Below are positions 20,851-57,061 of a DNA stretch of 64,000 nucleotides, piece by piece. The stretch is from Maribacter flavus (lineage in GTDB: Bacteria > Bacteroidota > Bacteroidia > Flavobacteriales > Flavobacteriaceae): assembly GCF_008386635.1 (NCBI RefSeq), contig NZ_VUOE01000002.1, positions 1-64,000 on the forward strand. The letters run 5' to 3'. The position numbers and the translations under genes were made by a program. Positions within the stretch are counted from its first letter, which is position 1. Every line of letters begins with the position of its first letter. A model generated the notes under the pieces. That model searched no databases and had not been told where the DNA came from. It saw nothing but the letters and a program-made list of their open reading frames with translations.

Positions 20851-21435
20851 ATGAAAACAATTGTAAAAATCACAACCGTAGTTGCCTTTATGTTCGCTAC
20901 AGTAGCGGGTATGGCAAGAGAGCCCAAATTGGACGTTGTTACCTTAAATAATTCCAAAAGTGTCCTATTGACCTTGGACGCACTGGACCAAAGTGTCACT
21001 GTTAGGCTTTTGGATTCGGATTCTAATAGTATCTATTTCGAAAAGCTTTCAAAAGGTCGTTTCAGTAAAAAACTGAATTTGAAAGATTTGGAAGATGGAT
21101 ATTATTATTTGGTAGCCGAAAGCGGACTAAAAAGCAACATGTACACCATTTCCTTAAAGGATGGTATCATTAAGATCATCGATTCTGAGGTAGATGCCAA
21201 ACCGTTTTTTAGAAAAACAGAAAATAGGGTTTTCATGAACTTTTTGAACTTGGATAAATCTGAGATTACCTTAAAAGTTTATGACCAAAACTATAGATTG
21301 GTGTTCTCCGAAACCGTATCCAATAAACTTATCGTAGAAAAGGCCTTTAACTTTCAAGGAGCCTATCCGGGAAGTTATATGGTAGTAGTATCCGATGATA
21401 CCAAAATTTACAGTGAAGAATTTGTTGTTAATTAA
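20851..21435 (+). CDS. Secreted protein of unknown function (194 aa)
   Basis: A signal peptide (MKTIVKITTVVAFMFATVAGMA/R) is followed by two tandem beta-sandwich-like units. Unit 1 is at about 25-110 (VVTLNNSKSVLLTLDALDQSVTVRLLDSD) and unit 2 at 120-194 (RVFMNFLNLDKSEITLKVYDQNYRLVFSE). The units share the pattern of a strand, a D/N-K/Q-S turn, V-x-L/V-x-V-x-D, then a GxY motif (EDGYYYLV; PGSYMVVV). This resembles the C-terminal beta domains of Bacteroidota exported proteins, but I cannot assign it to T9SS sorting with confidence. It has its own promoter and terminator. Function unknown. Confidence 0.8.
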   Translation: MKTIVKITTVVAFMFATVAGMAREPKLDVVTLNNSKSVLLTLDALDQSVTVRLLDSDSNSIYFEKLSKGRFSKKLNLKDLEDGYYYLVAESGLKSNMYTISLKDGIIKIIDSEVDAKPFFRKTENRVFMNFLNLDKSEITLKVYDQNYRLVFSETVSNKLIVEKAFNFQGAYPGSYMVVVSDDTKIYSEEFVVN

Positions 21436-21457
21436 GTTGGTTTAAGTTAATTTCAAG

Positions 21458-21484
21458 AAAAGGGGGCTGGAGAGCCCTCTTTTT
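21458..21484 (+). terminator. Intrinsic terminator
   Basis: AAAAGGGGGCT pairs with AGCCCTCTTTT around a GGAG loop and is followed by TTTGTTTTT. It lies 23 bases after the secreted protein gene and may also act for the DoxX-like gene ending at 21489 on the other strand. Confidence 0.8.
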
Positions 21485-21488
21485 GTTT

Positions 21489-21854
21489 TTATACGCTTAG
21501 GTAAGCGTACGCCCAGCACATCAAAAGGAATTGCAACGGAATGCGCAGTAATAATAACCATTTTGGAAATCCGGCCGATTCCTTTTCGCCCTTGAGCATA
21601 TAAAAGTGGACCAACAAAAAAACCGATAACATGGCCATAATTCCATAAATAGCTAAATCTTTGGTTTCCTGAAAGCATAGTCCAATGCCCAAAAGGATTT
21701 CAAATACGCCACTTAGAAGTACCAAAAATTTTGGAGAAGGTAGATAGTTGGGCATGACCCGCAAGTATATTTTGGGCCGTATAAAATGCATGAGGCCTGC
21801 GAACATATATAGCGCGGCCATCAAGTACAAGTGCCAAGGAAAATGAAGTTCCAT
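21489..21854 (-). CDS. DoxX-like small membrane protein
   Basis: A 121-residue membrane protein with four hydrophobic segments (about 8-25, 43-62, 70-87 and 100-118). The sequence LMAALYMFAGLMHFIRPKIYLRVMPNYLP followed by LLSGVFEILLGIGL is the DoxX/MauE-like pattern. Members of this broad family have been linked to quinone-dependent or redox functions, but most are unassigned. It overlaps the preceding MOSC gene by one base (TAATG), so the pair is translationally coupled. Confidence 0.85.
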   Translation of the reverse strand: MELHFPWHLYLMAALYMFAGLMHFIRPKIYLRVMPNYLPSPKFLVLLSGVFEILLGIGLCFQETKDLAIYGIMAMLSVFLLVHFYMLKGEKESAGFPKWLLLLRIPLQFLLMCWAYAYLSV

Positions 21855-28584: not shown

Positions 28585-28754
28585 TATTTTGAATTTTTAT
28601 ATTAGTTGCAAACACCTTTAGACAAAAAAAATACCATACTTAAAGAAGGTGACAAACTGACACCCTGGTATAGCACAAAACTTTAACAAAACTTTTGTTT
28701 AATTATTTTTCATAAACATTAAACATTATTTAATTTTACTTGTGATTAGGAAAG

Positions 28755-28850
28755 AAAATGCTATGAAAAAGTTTTAATCATAATCACGTTTGATTATTTA
28801 TTGGTTAGGTTGTTTGAAAACGTGCTTTCCCCCCGAAGGCACGTTTTTTA
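28755..28850 (+). ncRNA. Candidate small RNA, family copy 1
   Basis: This lies in the 320-base gap between htpG and the TetR-like gene. It contains TGCTATGAAA (28759-28768), then after 36 bases TTAGGTTG (28805-28812). A terminator hairpin follows: AAAACGTGC (28817-28825) paired with GCACGTTTT (28839-28847), then a T run. Both boxes and the terminal hairpin recur in the same order at 54401-54501 and 54547-54632. The terminator ends 54 bases before ATG 28905, so it could be an independent RNA or an attenuated leader for that gene. The rest of the gap is AT-rich with no other feature seen. Confidence 0.55.
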
Positions 28851-28904: not shown

Positions 28905-29558
28905 ATGGCTACCAAGAATAAAAAGATTACCAAGGAAGAAATTATTTCAAAGTACATGGACTATGTTTTGGAACATGAAAAGGAGCCCAAAACGGTCTAT
29001 AAATTCTGTAAGCAGCATGAAATTCCGGAAGCGGATTTTTACAAATTCTTTGCCTCCATTCCCGCTATTAAGAAGGGTATTTGGGACACCTTTTTCACCA
29101 ATACGCTTGCATTGATGCAAAAGAACAAGGACTATGAATCCTTTGCAAACAGGGAAAAATTGTTGACGTTTTTCTACACATTTTTCGAGATGTTGACCCT
29201 CAACAGAAGTTATGCCCTCTTTACATTGAACCAAGGCGGCAACCAGCTTAAGAACATGGAGCAACTAAAGGGATTACGAAAGAACCTGAAGGAGTTTGCC
29301 AAAGAGTTGATTGCTGATGGTAATAAGCAAAAAACGTATAAAATAACCAAGCACAATCCTTCTATTTTTTCGGAGGGAGCTTGGGTGCAATTTCTTTTTC
29401 TGTTGAGATTTTGGATGAACGATGAATCCCAAGGATTCGAAAAAACTGATTTGGCCATTGAAAAATCCGTAAATACGGTATTTGACCTTTTTGACAATAC
29501 TCCATTGGACAACATCGTAGATTTTGGGAAATTTCTTTACAAGGAAACATTTGCTTAA
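28905..29558 (+). CDS. TetR-like regulator (TetR C-terminal domain protein)
   Basis: A 217-residue helical protein. Residues 7-60 (ITKEEIISKYMDYVLEHEKEPKTVYKFCKQHEIPEADFYKFF) have the arrangement of a TetR helix-turn-helix, with EADFYKFF where the usual recognition helix stands. Residues 80-200 form the helical C-terminal domain. Similar proteins in Flavobacteriaceae are annotated as TetR family C-terminal domain proteins and lie immediately before an ABC1/AarF kinase gene, as here (17 bases). Ligand and targets are unknown; it might regulate the downstream kinase and KAS III genes. Confidence 0.82.
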   Translation: MATKNKKITKEEIISKYMDYVLEHEKEPKTVYKFCKQHEIPEADFYKFFASIPAIKKGIWDTFFTNTLALMQKNKDYESFANREKLLTFFYTFFEMLTLNRSYALFTLNQGGNQLKNMEQLKGLRKNLKEFAKELIADGNKQKTYKITKHNPSIFSEGAWVQFLFLLRFWMNDESQGFEKTDLAIEKSVNTVFDLFDNTPLDNIVDFGKFLYKETFA

Positions 29559-50745: not shown

Positions 50746-52350
50746 ATGGAAATTGATTGTTTGCCTTTTCGAAAGACCGGTTATTTTTCTAAACTGATTT
50801 GTGATTATATAGAGGAAAAAGAAACACTTACATCCCTTTACGGTCAATTTCCAAAACTGGAAAATTTTGAAAGGCAGATACGGGAGAAAAACGCAAATTT
50901 TTCGGTTTCCGGAAGGAAGACTTTGGTAAAGAGCCTGAAAGCACAATACGTGGACGTTAAAACTTCCAGTTTGACATCGGAAAATATTCAATCCTTACAT
51001 GATGAAAATACCTTTACGGTAACCACAGGGCATCAACTTAACCTCTTTACGGGACCTTTGTATTTTCTGTATAAAATCGTTTCGACAATCAACCTTTCCA
51101 AGGTTTTAAAGGAGACCTATGGCGATTATAATTTTGTTCCCGTGTATTGGATGGCGACAGAAGATCACGATTTTGAGGAAATCAACTATTTCAATTTTAA
51201 AGGGAAGAAGATACAGTGGAACAAAAATGCATCGGGGGCGGTTGGACATCTTTCAACGGAAGGCCTGGATGAAGTCTTCGAGATATTTTCAAATACCATC
51301 GGAGGAAGTAAAAATGCCGATTACCTAAAAAATCTTTTCACGAAAGCCTACCTGAAACATAAAAATCTGACAAGGGCCACACGCTATTTGACAAATGAAT
51401 TGTTCAAGGAGCAGGGGCTGGTAATAGTAGATGGTGACGATCATCATTTGAAGGAATTATTGGTTCCCTATATTAAAAAGGACCTATTCGAACAAGTCTC
51501 CTTTACATCGGTATCAAAAAAAATATCGGAAATACAGCAAATGGACCCAGATTATGGTATCCAGGTAAACCCTAGGGAAATTAACTACTTCTATCTTAAG
51601 GATGGCATTAGGGAGCGCATTGTGGAAAGGGATGGCAAATTTTATATCAACGATACCCAATTGTCTTTTACAAAAGAGGAATTACTGGAAGAGCTCCAAA
51701 CGTATCCAGAACGATTTTCGCCCAATGTGGTGGCAAGACCTTTGTATCAGGAAGTAATATTACCCAATTTGTGCTATATAGGCGGGGGCGGTGAGCTGGC
51801 GTATTGGTTACAGTTAAAGGCCTCTTTCCAAGCCATGGAAGTACCGTTTCCTATACTATTATTACGAAATTCTGTCTTGATAATTACCGAAAAACAGAAT
51901 GAAAAGCTGGACAAATTGAACGTGAGCCATGAAGACATTTTTTTAAAACGGCACAGTTTGATCAATAAGAAAATCAGGGAGGTATCGAACATCGACATAG
52001 ATTTTTCACCGCAAAAAAAGTTTTTGGAAGAACAGTTCAAGGGGTTGTACGATTTGGCCGAACAGACGGACAAGTCCTTTTTGGGAGCGGTAAAGGCCCA
52101 GGAAGTAAAGCAGAAGAAAGGCCTTGATAAATTGGAAAAACGACTGTTAAAGGCCCAAAAAAGAAAATTGGAGGACCATGTGGTCCGGTTGACGGATATT
52201 CAGAACCAACTCTTTCCAGGTCAGTCCCTTCAGGAACGCCAATTGAACTTTTCAGAACTGTATTTGGAATATGGTGAGGAATTGATACCAATGCTTCTAA
52301 AGCACTTAAATCCATTGGATTTGAATTTTTTTGTACTCTCCATAAAGTAA
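50746..52350 (+). CDS. bshC: Bacillithiol biosynthesis cysteine-adding enzyme BshC
   Basis: A 534-residue cytosolic enzyme that adds cysteine to glucosaminyl-malate in the last step of bacillithiol synthesis. Recognisable features are TVTTGHQLNLFTGPLYFLYKI near residue 92, VYWMATEDHDFEEINYF near 135 and LCYIGGGGELAYWLQLKASF near 345. A long coiled-coil stretch lies at about 430-500 (KAQEVKQKKGLDKLEKRLLKAQKRKLEDHVVRL). BshA and BshB are not in this window. Bacillithiol is the main low-molecular-weight thiol in many Bacteroidota and is tied to redox and metal homeostasis. Confidence 0.95.
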   Translation: MEIDCLPFRKTGYFSKLICDYIEEKETLTSLYGQFPKLENFERQIREKNANFSVSGRKTLVKSLKAQYVDVKTSSLTSENIQSLHDENTFTVTTGHQLNLFTGPLYFLYKIVSTINLSKVLKETYGDYNFVPVYWMATEDHDFEEINYFNFKGKKIQWNKNASGAVGHLSTEGLDEVFEIFSNTIGGSKNADYLKNLFTKAYLKHKNLTRATRYLTNELFKEQGLVIVDGDDHHLKELLVPYIKKDLFEQVSFTSVSKKISEIQQMDPDYGIQVNPREINYFYLKDGIRERIVERDGKFYINDTQLSFTKEELLEELQTYPERFSPNVVARPLYQEVILPNLCYIGGGGELAYWLQLKASFQAMEVPFPILLLRNSVLIITEKQNEKLDKLNVSHEDIFLKRHSLINKKIREVSNIDIDFSPQKKFLEEQFKGLYDLAEQTDKSFLGAVKAQEVKQKKGLDKLEKRLLKAQKRKLEDHVVRLTDIQNQLFPGQSLQERQLNFSELYLEYGEELIPMLLKHLNPLDLNFFVLSIK

Positions 52351-53797: not shown

Positions 53798-54340
53798 CTA
53801 AGGAACCAAGAACTCACCTTTCCAATTGTCTTCCTTCGCATAGGCTATTCGAATATGGTTAGGTCTTTTTAACTTTAAGTATTCGATTCTAAAAGGTTCA
53901 ATTTCAATCATGGAGAAAAAATGGTCTCCGGTAAGGTATTCCAAGTTATCCGGATTTTTTAAGGTGCTTCCCGGTGCAGTATCGGTCGTGTAATCCTTTT
54001 TATTGCTCTCGGGGATGTCCTTCCACATGGTCTGAAGTTTGTTTTCATCGGTGACTACGGAAGCTAGTCCCTCGATCTTTACCTGTAAAAGTTTTTCGGG
54101 ATGATAAAAAAGAAGGCTAACGTTCGGGTTTTCCGTAATATGGATGACTTTTTTGGAACGCTTATCAGTATAAAAACAAAGATGCCCGTTTTCATAGACG
54201 TGCCTTAGAACTATGGTGCGCAATCTTGGCAATTTGTCCACGCCCACGGTTGCAAATGTCCCAAATCTAAAGGGGTGTCCTTTTTCCTCAACGCCCTTTT
54301 TAAGTTCGTCCTGAAGTTCGTTCCAAAAGTAATCCATCAT
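53798..54340 (-). CDS. Pyridoxamine 5'-phosphate oxidase family protein
   Basis: A 180-residue FMN-binding split-barrel protein. Blocks: PRLRTIVLRHVYENGHLCFYTDKRSKKV (about 37-65), NPNVSLLFYHPEKLLQVKIEG and the C-terminal FRIEYLKLKRPNHIRIAY. It belongs to the general PNPOx-like group rather than clearly being PdxH, since the typical PdxH C-terminal RPGR-type block is absent. Possible roles are pyridoxal-phosphate salvage or a flavin-linked reductase. Two ATG codons in a row open it; the outer one is used. Confidence 0.87.
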   Translation of the reverse strand: MMDYFWNELQDELKKGVEEKGHPFRFGTFATVGVDKLPRLRTIVLRHVYENGHLCFYTDKRSKKVIHITENPNVSLLFYHPEKLLQVKIEGLASVVTDENKLQTMWKDIPESNKKDYTTDTAPGSTLKNPDNLEYLTGDHFFSMIEIEPFRIEYLKLKRPNHIRIAYAKEDNWKGEFLVP

Positions 54341-54400
54341 TTTTTTAATAAAAATACAAAATCAGGGTAGGGTTTTTTATGCCTTGGTTGTTATAAATAC

Positions 54401-54501
54401 AAATTGCTATGAAAAAGAAGATTTAGTTAATGATTCATTTTTAGGTTGGTTTTTGATTTTAATTAGTAAGCTCGGGGTGGTTCCCGAGCTTTTCTTTTTT
54501 T
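54401..54501 (+). ncRNA. Candidate small RNA, family copy 2
   Basis: TGCTATGAAA (54405-54414), 26 bases, TTAGGTTG (54441-54448), 19 bases, then the hairpin AAGCTCGGG (54468-54476) / CCCGAGCTT (54483-54491) followed by a T-rich tail to 54501. The next plus-strand gene is far away, because the SIMPL gene downstream is on the minus strand. A plus-strand transcript here therefore cannot be a leader for a gene. Confidence 0.6.
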
Positions 54502-54546
54502 AAATGTAAGGTTTGTGAATTTTTGACGACTAAAAATGCGGAATAC

Positions 54547-54632
54547 AAAGTGCTATGAAAGAGAAATTTTTCAATATTGTATTCCAATTAGGTTGGTTGA
54601 GAAAGCCCGGTATTGGCCGGGCTTTTGTTTTT
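54547..54632 (+). ncRNA. Candidate small RNA, family copy 3
   Basis: TGCTATGAAA (54551-54560), 27 bases, TTAGGTTG (54588-54595), 6 bases, then AAAGCCCGG (54602-54610) / CCGGGCTTT (54617-54625) and a T-rich tail. It is in tandem with copy 2, and both lie in the 389-base gap between the PNPOx and SIMPL genes. Apart from these two elements and AT-rich spacers I see nothing else in that gap. Confidence 0.6.
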
Positions 54633-54729
54633 CCATAATTATTTTAAGTGGGAAATTCAATTTGTAGGAATTGATTCAACTATTTTATTTCCAGTTGATT
54701 GTATCTGCTTATTTGAATTGATAAATAAA

Positions 54730-55455
54730 CTACTTGACCTTGTAGTCCAGTCGCATGGTAATGGAGGCCGTTTTGTTTTTTGAATCGGTATTATAGGCCC
54801 CGCCCCAAGAATAATCCTCTCCGGAATTCTGACCTGTGATTTGAAAAACGCCCATTTTAGCGGAAATCAATTCACCTAAGTCACTACCTGAATTTTCAGC
54901 AATTTTTTCGGCTCTCAACCGGGCATCTTCGGTGGCCTTGGAAATCATTTCTATTTTAAGGTCGGCCAACTTGGTGTAATAATACCTTGGCGGATAGGAA
55001 TTGAATTGAACCCCTTTGTTTAAAAGTTCCGTAATTTCCCTAGAGACGCTTTCTATCAGACTTACATCTTGTGACTCTATTTTTACGGTCTGCATAAGTT
55101 GGTACCCCCTAAAGATGCTGCCAATATAATTTCCGTTTTCGTATTTGTTGTCCCTTTGCTCAATGGTTTGCACGCTATTGAAAATAATCTGGTCGTCCTT
55201 GATGCCCTTGGAGGTCAAATAGTCCCGTACGATACTTTTATCGTTGTTCAATTGGTCAAAGGCCGATTTAAGATCCGTACTGTTGGCCGAAAACTGGCCT
55301 TCCCAGACAATTAGATCTGATGTAAAGTTTTCATTGCCCAACCCCGTAACCGAAATTATCTGTGGCGGATTGGCCCTTTTTACGTACGCATTGCCCAAGA
55401 AAAAAGCTGCAATTACGATGGCGGCCGCAAAGATTATCGCTGAAATATGTTTCAA
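54730..55455 (-). CDS. SIMPL domain (DUF541) periplasmic protein
   Basis: A 241-residue protein starting at TTG 55455 (MKHISAIIFAAAIVIAAFF), which gives a membrane anchor or signal at about 4-22. The SIMPL domain follows: ISVTGLGNENFTSDLIVWEG, FNSVQTIEQRDNKYENGNYIG, and the C-terminal ASITMRLDYKVK. SIMPL proteins are linked to oxidative stress and outer-membrane or periplasmic assembly, but their mechanism is unknown. The frame is open to 55743, but the longer form would run through guaA in antisense and is rejected. Confidence 0.88.
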   Translation of the reverse strand: MKHISAIIFAAAIVIAAFFLGNAYVKRANPPQIISVTGLGNENFTSDLIVWEGQFSANSTDLKSAFDQLNNDKSIVRDYLTSKGIKDDQIIFNSVQTIEQRDNKYENGNYIGSIFRGYQLMQTVKIESQDVSLIESVSREITELLNKGVQFNSYPPRYYYTKLADLKIEMISKATEDARLRAEKIAENSGSDLGELISAKMGVFQITGQNSGEDYSWGGAYNTDSKNKTASITMRLDYKVK

Positions 55456-55517
55456 AACAATTGTCTTTAATTCTGATAAATATACCAAAAGATAGTTTTC
55501 AAAAAACTTCAAATTGC

Positions 55518-55525
55518 TATTTTTG
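55518..55525 (+). promoter_or_regulatory. -7 box (TATTTTTG) directly before guaA
   Basis: TATTTTTG fits TAnnTTTG and ends only 3 bases before ATG 55529. With transcription starting about 4 bases after the box, the mRNA would begin at or very near the start codon, that is, leaderless. Confidence 0.5.
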
Positions 55526-55528
55526 CCC

Positions 55529-57061
55529 ATGCAAAATAATGTTCTTATACTGGATTTTGGTTCCCAATACACACAACTCATCGCTAGACGGGTTAGGGAA
55601 TTGAATATTTTCTGTGAAATAAAACCGTACAATAAGCTGCCGGATGATTTAACCGAGTACAAGGCCGTTATCCTTTCCGGGTCGCCACACTCCGTTAGGG
55701 CAGAAGATGCTCCGCATCCTGATTTAAGTAATATTAAGGGCAAGAAACCACTTTTGGGAGTTTGTTACGGAGCCCAGTATCTGGCACATTTTAATGGCGG
55801 TAAAGTTGAAAAATCCAATACCAGGGAATACGGGAGGGCCAAGTTGGCCAAATTGTACGAACAGGACCCCTTTTTAAGGCATATTGAGGTAGGTAGCCAG
55901 GTGTGGATGAGCCATGCAGATACCATAAAAAATCTCCCTGAAAAATCAATTTTATTGGCCAGTACACACGATGTTGAAAATGCTGCGTTTAAGTTTATAG
56001 GGGAGGATACTTACGGAATACAATTTCACCCAGAAGTATATCACTCAACGGATGGAAAACAGATTTTGGAAAACTTTTTGGTACACATAGCCAAAGTAGC
56101 GCAAACTTGGACACCTGCCGCTTTTGTGGAAACCACGGTGGCCGAACTGAAGGCTAAGATCGGTGATGAGAAAGTAATCCTTGGACTATCCGGTGGGGTA
56201 GATTCTTCCGTGGCCGCCGTTCTATTGAACAAGGCCATAGGCGATAATTTGCACTGTATTTTTGTAAATAACGGCCTGCTTAGGAAGAACGAATTTGATG
56301 ATGTACTGCATCAGTATAAGGATATGGGGCTGAATGTTAAGGGAGTGGATGCTTCGGCACGCTTTTTGGACGCGTTGGAAGGGGAAAGTGACCCGGAAAA
56401 GAAACGAAAGACCATTGGTAGGGTTTTTATTGAAGTTTTTGATGACGAAGCACATAAGGTTGAAAATGCAAAGTGGTTGGCACAAGGAACTATTTATCCA
56501 GATGTTATAGAATCGGTTTCCGCAACGGGAGGCCCATCGGCTACTATAAAAAGTCACCATAACGTAGGTGGTCTCCCAGATTTTATGAAGCTTAAGGTAG
56601 TGGAGCCCCTAAAAATGCTTTTTAAGGACGAAGTGAGAAGAGTTGGTAAAAGTATGGGATTGGAACCAAACCTATTAGGAAGGCACCCCTTCCCAGGACC
56701 CGGTTTGGCAATACGAATTTTGGGAGATATAACTCGGGAAAAAGTTGCCATATTACAGGAAGTAGACCATATTTTTATACAAGGTTTGAAGGATTGGGGT
56801 CTTTATGATCAGATTTGGCAGGCCGGAGCCATGCTTTTGCCCGTAAATAGTGTAGGGGTGATGGGCGATGAGCGTACCTATGAAAAGTGTGTCGCTTTGA
56901 GAGCCGTAGAAAGTACGGATGGTATGACCGCGGATTGGGTAAATTTACCGTACGAGTTTTTGCAAAAAACTTCAAACGATATAATCAATAAAGTGCCCGG
57001 TATAAATAGAGTCGTATACGACATTAGCTCCAAACCGCCGGCCACCATTGAATGGGAATAA
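55529..57061 (+). CDS. guaA: GMP synthase (glutamine-hydrolysing)
   Basis: A 510-residue two-domain enzyme that converts XMP to GMP. The glutaminase domain is at 5-190: [19 protein letters not shown], nucleophile C79 in [13 protein letters not shown] and the His-Glu pair in [12 protein letters not shown]. The ATP pyrophosphatase domain has [14 protein letters not shown] near residue 218. The C-terminal dimerisation domain has [16 protein letters not shown] and ends [10 protein letters not shown] use ATG 55529 ([10 protein letters not shown]); the frame opens five codons upstream. Two bases downstream the LysM gene begins. Confidence 0.97.

Follow-up and report, generated by a model that had tools for sequence, protein, structure and literature searches.

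Putative small RNAs of three types with shared boxes and different promoter-like sequences in Maribacter flavus and other Flavobacteriaceae

The window, that is, the whole 64,000-nt stretch of Maribacter flavus DNA that was analysed, carries three short elements on its plus strand. Two of them (copies 2 and 3) stand side by side between a PNPOx-domain gene and a SIMPL-domain gene; the other (copy 1) lies at 28742-28850. Each contains a first box, TGCTATGAAA, a second box with the core TTAGGTTG (28805-28812, 54441-54448 and 54588-54595, respectively) and a terminator hairpin. The features are as follows.

28696..28738 (+): region upstream of copy 1, with the inverted repeat TGTTTAA (28696-28702) / TTAAACA (28719-28725), 16 nt between the arms, and the -7-like box TAATTTTA (28731-28738)
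28742..28850 (+): copy 1, putative type A small RNA of about 109 nt, start predicted; counterparts lie beside htpG or after an AarF-like gene
28742-28748 with 28781-28787 (+): pairing P1 of copy 1
28759-28768 (+): box 1 of copy 1, TGCTATGAAA
28794-28812 (+): box 2 of copy 1, including TTAGGTTG
28817-28849 (+): terminator hairpin of copy 1
53798-54340 (-): PNPOx-domain gene flanking copies 2 and 3
54367..54395 (+): promoter-like pair of copy 2 (type B), GTAGGG-N16-TGTTATA, a family pattern and putative promoter
54400..54497 (+): copy 2, putative type B small RNA of about 98 nt; start predicted within 3 nt from the promoter-like pair, end set at the T tail
54405..54414 (+): box 1 of copy 2, TGCTATGAAA
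54441..54453 (+): box 2 of copy 2, TTAGGTTGGTTTT, which extends TTAGGTTG
54468..54491 (+): terminator hairpin of copy 2 (from folding), with a T tail
54505..54530 (+): ECF-sigma-like putative promoter of copy 3, TGTAAG-N16-CGAC, spacing equal in 8/8 aligned loci
54537..54632 (+): copy 3, putative type C small RNA of about 96 nt, start predicted within 2 nt; folding z = -4.3
54540..54585 (+): 5' hairpin P1 of copy 3 with box 1 inside; 54540-54548 pairs with 54577-54585
54551..54560 (+): box 1 of copy 3, TGCTATGAAA
54588..54598 (+): box 2 of copy 3, TTAGGTTGGTT, which extends TTAGGTTG
54601..54626 (+): terminator hairpin of copy 3 (from folding), with a T tail to 54632
54730-55581 (-): SIMPL-domain gene flanking copies 2 and 3

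The original prediction had described copies 2 and 3 as a tandem pair of autonomous short RNAs. Both boxes, the spacers of 26 and 27 nt and two different terminators were found where it had placed them, and its length of about 80-100 nt agrees with the 98 and 96 nt counted from the predicted starts. Its first 5' end, 54400, equals ours, while the second, 54547, is only near our 54537; in copy 2 the T run goes on to 54501. Since both flanking genes are on the minus strand, copies 2 and 3 lead into no gene, as had been argued, and the reading frames from the box 1 ATGs do have the claimed 5 and 27 codons. The two copies indeed stand side by side, but they belong to different conserved types and are not a simple tandem duplication. 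These distinct types, the differing promoters and the 5' hairpin of copy 3 had been overlooked. In copies 1 and 3 a hairpin encloses box 1; copy 2 has no hairpin of that kind.

Taken singly, neither box is clearly in excess over chance in the window: box 1 with at most one mismatch occurs 5 times against 6.2 expected, and box 2 occurs 4 times against 2.8. Together, as TGCTATGAAA-N15..45-TTAGGTTG, they occur three times in the 4.3-Mb genome, all inside the window (at 28759, 54405 and 54551), and the reversed control gives 0. Compared with dinucleotide shuffles, the folding of 54405-54503 and 54551-54632 has z = -2.8 and -3.4, respectively; from the predicted starts the values are -2.8 for copy 2 and -4.3 for copy 3. 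Judged from the sequence, the marks of an intergenic sRNA gene are present, namely a putative promoter of its own, an intrinsic terminator and no gene following on the same strand, with the exception of the plus-strand gene that follows copy 1.

A search for GCTATGAAA-N15..45-TTAGGTTG found the pattern in 37 of 199 genomes of the family (about one per genus), and the reversed pattern in 12 of 199. In three of the 37 (L022, L038 and L042) the matches lack the shared neighbours. These were excluded from the seed alignments and from R1, a covariance model of six copy-1-like sequences with a structure set by hand, in which L023 is misregistered in the terminator. With E <= 0.01, R1 has matches in 75 of the 199 family genomes, which represent 74 of the 198 sampled genera, some of the matches being weak; with E <= 0.001 it has matches in 11 of 296 genomes drawn order-wide. 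Forty loci taken from the R1 matches (one of which, L092, is the same as the earlier locus L060) comprise 25 in type A places, one in the pair's own place, six of type C by sequence and eight unplaced. Like arrangements recur at conserved loci across many genera of Flavobacteriaceae. Named genomes among the matches listed include Maribacter, Muricauda/Flagellimonas, Croceitalea, Croceivirga, Cellulophaga, Galbibacter, Eudoraea, Aequorivita and others; the box scan of named genomes covered at least 118 stretches and at least 80 loci. The invariance of the boxes among the box-pattern and named-genome loci is no evidence, because these loci were picked by their boxes. At the level of the class, a box 2 pattern was found in 5 of 395 genomes, our own and four outside the family; at these four a hairpin is absent, and they are chance matches.

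R1 is a type A model. It gives copy 1 98.1 bits (E = 1.3e-15 over the whole genome), copy 3 32.2 bits (E = 0.015) and copy 2 28.2 bits (E = 0.086), and in a stricter family scan copy 1 was its only match in the M. flavus genome. For copies 2 and 3, with such weak scores, the case for membership is made by boxes, places and promoters. Copies 1, 2 and 3 are three types (A, B and C), each conserved at its own places in other Flavobacteriaceae. Box 1 lies in a loop in type A, near the 5' end in type B and in a hairpin arm in many type C members. With box 1 placed so differently, descent of the three types from a single ancestor is presumed, not proved.

Among 30 type A loci, our own included, 22 adjoin htpG and face away from it, 7 come after a gene for an AarF-like ABC1 protein and 1 is elsewhere. 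The gene that follows is not constant (TetR, FabH and others). In the window, a TetR-family gene (28905-29558, plus strand) begins about 55 nt after copy 1. Of 76 type A loci, 71 have a TAnnTTT[GA] that begins 20-40 nt ahead of GCTATG; the reversed-string control, in a narrower window than the test, gave 3. TGTTTAA-N8..30-TTAAACA is present in 32 of the 76, and the inverted repeat upstream of copy 1 could be an operator.

In type A, the spacer is complementary to the stretch ahead of box 1, and pairing of the two leaves GCUAUGAAA in the loop of a hairpin, P1. For two type A groups aligned with MAFFT, RNAalifold returned the terminator only, or nothing. This poor yield reflects the shifting register of the stem among sequences, and therefore tests with re-dealt spacers and the hand-structured covariance model were used. 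For the first 32 matches of all types, L022 still among them, the mean stem score is 19.2, compared with 15.8 for re-dealt spacers (sd 0.54, maximum 16.9 of 40 re-dealings). For 76 distinct named type A loci, it is 19.8 compared with 15.2 (sd 0.38, maximum 16.1 of 200). Ten of these loci were already in earlier sets, and a repeat on the 66 loci new to the test gave 19.7 compared with 15.3 (sd 0.39, maximum 16.5). When 77 distinct type A sequences were fitted to R1, all 9 pairs of P1 and all 11 pairs of the terminator were found changed on both sides, and P1 was 90.4% paired. The covariation score is 0.773, compared with 0.221 for shuffled sequences and at most 0.172 when the structure is slid; an alignment fitted to R1 is biased toward the structure, and the re-dealing tests are independent of any alignment. 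The 5' hairpin of type A is strongly covarying, with compensatory base changes throughout. Likeness by chance is refuted for type A by this covariation.

With the start predicted from a box at -12 to -5, as described in PMC9723704, the best stem starts within 3 nt of the predicted start in 58 of the 71 loci with TAnnTTT[GA]. In 44 of the 71 the stem reaches at least 1 nt upstream of it, so the outermost pairs of P1 may lie outside the RNA. By eye, ATTGGTTAGGTTG is exact in 17 of the 25 type A loci from R1, a model that itself favours that sequence.

Nine type B sequences have GTAGGG-N16-TGTTNTA in common; box 1 follows it at once, and then come a spacer that varies and box 2 ahead of the terminator. 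The box 2 consensus is TTCATGTGTTTAGGTTGGTTTTTTGATTTTGAT, from which copy 2 deviates in the 5' part. Of 199 family genomes, 16 contain GTAGGGN16TGTTNTAN{6,16}GCTATGA and none its reversed control, and GTAGGGN15-17TGTTNTA has a single occurrence in the 1.52 Mb searched of the M. flavus genome. Neighbours were surveyed in 10 of these 16 genomes. Of 8 type B loci from other genera, 7 adjoin the PNPOx-domain gene; the eighth lies in the same neighbourhood, between genes for BshC and a decarboxylase. Taken as a promoter, the pair would place the start of the RNA at about 54400, with box 1 near the 5' end and no leader left for P1. Upstream-spacer stems of type B score under the control mean in 4 of 4, which agrees with the absence of such a leader; hairpins within the spacer appear in single folds. 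A gene for BshC (bacillithiol biosynthesis) is also found near the B-C pair in the window (50746-52350), and a homologue near type B in 7 of the 8 other-genus loci.

Type C is preceded by TGTAAG exactly 16 nt before CGAC in all 8 aligned loci, a layout like that of an ECF-sigma promoter. Requiring GGTTGG 20-50 nt on left 30 matching genomes among the 199 of the family (reversed control 4); these 30 do not include copy 3 and its same-genus counterpart, in which the gap is longer. The tyrS gene is convergent just downstream in 29 of the 30 other-genus loci, and a LuxE-domain gene is often upstream. In the same-genus genome a B-C tandem stands at the same place as in the window, and there the hairpin GGAATACAA/TTGTATTCC of copy 3 is replaced by TTGAATACA/TGTATTCAA (L068), changed on both sides. 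Over 28 loci (of the 30, L149 was left out as lying away from tyrS and L142 was lost to a position filter), the mean folding energy is -6.46 kcal/mol, compared with -3.73 when halves are swapped between loci (sd 0.42, best -5.12). Compared with shuffles, z is below -1 in 21 of the 28 and above 0 in 4 (L131, L132, L134 and L153). By this swap test and by copy 3 against L068, type C has compensatory base changes. Box 1 reads CTAAG in 9 of the 30 loci and, by eye, keeps its ATG in 12; in the folds of the CTAAG members box 1 is often the 5' arm.

In the M. flavus genome, TGTAAG-N16-CGAC occurs five times (reversed control 2): at copy 3, inside genes twice and before msrB twice. The latter are its only other intergenic occurrences: the first base of the motif lies 64 nt ahead of the msrB-msrA operon in one case and 95 nt ahead of another msrB in the other. 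The 15 other type C genomes have 39 matches, of which 15 are the type C loci themselves; the reversed control gives 74, so the motif has no numerical excess. The remaining 24 have msrB 67-80 nt on in five cases (5 of the 15 genomes), a Crp-type regulator 54-59 nt on in three, a Spondin_N protein 49-59 nt on in three and a DM13 protein in one, with no recurrent gene behind the other 12. Here, msrB was named by BLAST, and the Crp-type, Spondin_N and DM13 genes by Pfam on one each, with the others assigned by matching protein starts. That the same genes recur at like distances would speak for a regulon, and the genes preceded by this motif may form an uncharacterised flavobacterial ECF regulon. 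The promoter of copy 3 would resemble in kind that of msrB, whose products repair oxidised proteins. As far as sequence can speak, it supports the family together with its structure and loci, and also the promoter match between type C and msrB. In other genera (L324, L301, L371 and their partners), the motif was seen before the genes for the Crp-type regulator, Spondin_N and DM13 proteins.

No Rfam family matches the window or 14 related loci of all types at gathering score, in line with the original prediction, which knew of no described family with these boxes. This includes Flavo-1, likewise an RNA motif of Flavobacteriaceae, which has no match in 54340-54660 even at E up to 5. The nearest in kind among known families is FopS (RF04319), which scores 16.9 and 16.4 bits here against a gathering score of 56 and has no gathering match in the 14 further loci. 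FopS RNAs are described as paralogous, multi-copy short sRNAs of Bacteroides with their own promoters and terminators, which associate with RbpB, an RRM-1 protein (PMC11697453). Copies 1-3 would likewise be multi-copy short sRNAs of Bacteroidota with their own promoters and terminators. They differ in that FopS promoters are described as canonical (PMC11697453) while three promoter types are predicted here, and in that the M. flavus genome has no RRM_1 match that could stand for the RbpB partner.

Among flavobacterial sRNAs, those of Flavobacterium psychrophilum named Rfp are comparable, some being described as structured and as shared by several species. An ECF-type promoter, SM6, is given for the start of Rfp11, and Rfp18 is described as pairing through its third stem-loop (PMC9723704). 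SM6 is described with a CGT box (PMC9723704), whereas type C has CGAC. The main text of PMC9723704 mentions HtpG once, and TyrS, PdxH and methionine sulfoxide are not named there. One of types A-C may already have been seen as a transcript of F. psychrophilum. In the open-access literature the family was not recognised; full-text matches to the three box strings were potato papers.

If box 2 pairs with mRNAs, its complements might be frequent near start codons. In 1136 translation-initiation regions, AACCAA (the complement of UUGGUU) was counted 78 times against 30 expected and AACCTA (the complement of UAGGUU) 35 times against 16; CCAACC is not enriched in these regions (13 against 14.6). Other words of four A and two C are nearly as common as AACCAA, which is in 67 of the 1136 regions, with AAAACC in 58 and AAACCA in 54, and the counts of 8-mer complements are tiny (AACCAACC 4 against 1.1, CAACCTAA 3 against 0.9, AACCTAAC 0). 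Given AT-rich 5' UTRs, words of like composition that are nearly as common and longer complements that are not clearly enriched, the target signal is only a lead. Hfq (PF17209) was not found in the M. flavus genome, and RRM_1 (PF00076) has 0 matches there (control genomes 2/14, one of them a Bacteroides). GGUU as a general 3'-end module was also considered and rejected: before 119 other terminator-like hairpins (464 kb; a first, stricter finder had given 24), TTAGGTT occurs 0 times, GTTGGTT once and GGTT 21 times against 15.3 expected.

We consider it rather probable that copies 1-3 are paralogous, independently transcribed sRNAs with their own promoters, most likely acting in trans through box 2. 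The autonomous short RNAs of the original prediction, taken as neither leaders nor peptide genes, fit all tests run. Transcription itself, the sigma factor, the pairing of box 2 and the stress signal are what the sequences lead us to propose. For each RNA, a separate promoter would be followed by a box like UUGCUAUGAAAAAG close to the 5' end, and a GGUU-rich box would stand just ahead of an intrinsic terminator; in types A and C a hairpin would open the RNA, from about nucleotide 1. The promoter of type A would be of the housekeeping-sigma kind, in part with an operator-like repeat, that of type B a private bipartite element, and that of type C an ECF-type promoter common to msrB. Since the promoters differ by type, different signals may feed a common output. 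Box 2 (UUGGUU with extensions) would pair in trans with mRNA 5' UTRs, and in the case of type C this might happen under oxidative-type stress.

A shared output with separate inputs is the layout of sibling sRNAs in other bacteria. MicA and RybB are sigma-E-dependent sRNAs that depend on Hfq. An ECF sigma factor that drives an sRNA beside its protein regulon would also be the logic of type C, if type C is ECF-driven; no sequence relation is claimed, and Hfq, on which MicA and RybB depend, was not found here. In its fullest form our proposal is tentative and perhaps somewhat short of an even chance. One output module (box 1, the GGUU box and the terminator) would have come under three or more promoter systems unrelated to each other; housekeeping, private and ECF oxidative-repair signals would then converge on the same mRNAs with neither an Hfq nor an RRM_1 chaperone found, and the methionine sulfoxide reductase regulon would have its noncoding arm in type C.

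The main rival to mRNA pairing is a protein-binding role, in which box 2 or box 1 would sequester an RNA-binding protein or recruit it, in the manner of 6S or CsrB-type RNAs. Box 2 is long, ATTGGTTAGGTTG (exact in 17 of 25 loci) being longer than a usual seed, the M. flavus genome has up to three members and target enrichment is not clear, all of which would suit such a role; against it, neither of the two candidate proteins tested, Hfq and RRM_1, was found in the genome. We regard it as rather unlikely, if well ahead of the other alternatives. That box 1 is a translation start, the elements encoding short MKK peptides or regulatory mini-ORFs, is suggested by the ATG or GTG at box 1 in most type A members, though most were selected by box 1, and by the ATG in 12 of 30 type C loci. 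No conserved reading frame is found: over the 76 type A loci the frame runs from 2 to 37 codons, with 2-3 codons in 28, and 9 of 30 type C loci have CTAAG at box 1. Moreover, each of the three frames occurs across box 2 (...CLFIG, ...YLLVRL, ...NWLGC), and the longer peptides are alike only among some members, which makes coding very improbable.

A role as leader or attenuator of the gene downstream is largely refuted already. It would suit copy 1, which ends shortly before the plus-strand TetR-family gene, but the gene after type A varies, the next gene after copies 2 and 3 is on the minus strand and 29 of 30 type C loci have a convergent tyrS; there is little chance that it holds. Likewise, we give very little weight to a chance or convergent likeness of ordinary terminators and AT-rich intergenic DNA. 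Single boxes do occur at about chance frequency in the window, the reversed control of the looser box pattern reached 12 of 199 genomes, four class-level box 2 matches fall outside the family, and copies 2 and 3 score weakly when the whole genome is searched. Conserved loci, compensatory pairs and fixed promoter spacing stand against such an origin.

Regulation by sRNAs is little known in Flavobacteriaceae, a major group of marine bacteria; the transcriptome study of F. psychrophilum reports one sRNA deletion (PMC9723704). A covarying family with a predicted stress link for one type offers defined RNAs, start sites and a sigma-factor hypothesis, and raises the question of how sRNAs act where neither Hfq nor an RRM_1 protein is found.

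Three weak R1 matches elsewhere in the genome (C2:349380, C1:1395520 and C1:201761) were left out of the member count. At C2:349380-349476 on the minus strand (L047, 30.4 bits), a hairpin GATCGATA/TATTGATC is followed by ATTGGTTGGTTGTTTAAAGG and a terminator-like hairpin, without box 1; this is a possible fourth relative. At C1:201761-201826 on the plus strand (L050, 20.4 bits), AATTGCTATGAAAAAG is followed by a hairpin AATATTGG/CCAATATT, without box 2. Finally, GTTGGTTTAAGTT stands ahead of a terminator hairpin at 21432-21490 of the window, directly after the ORF 20851-21432.
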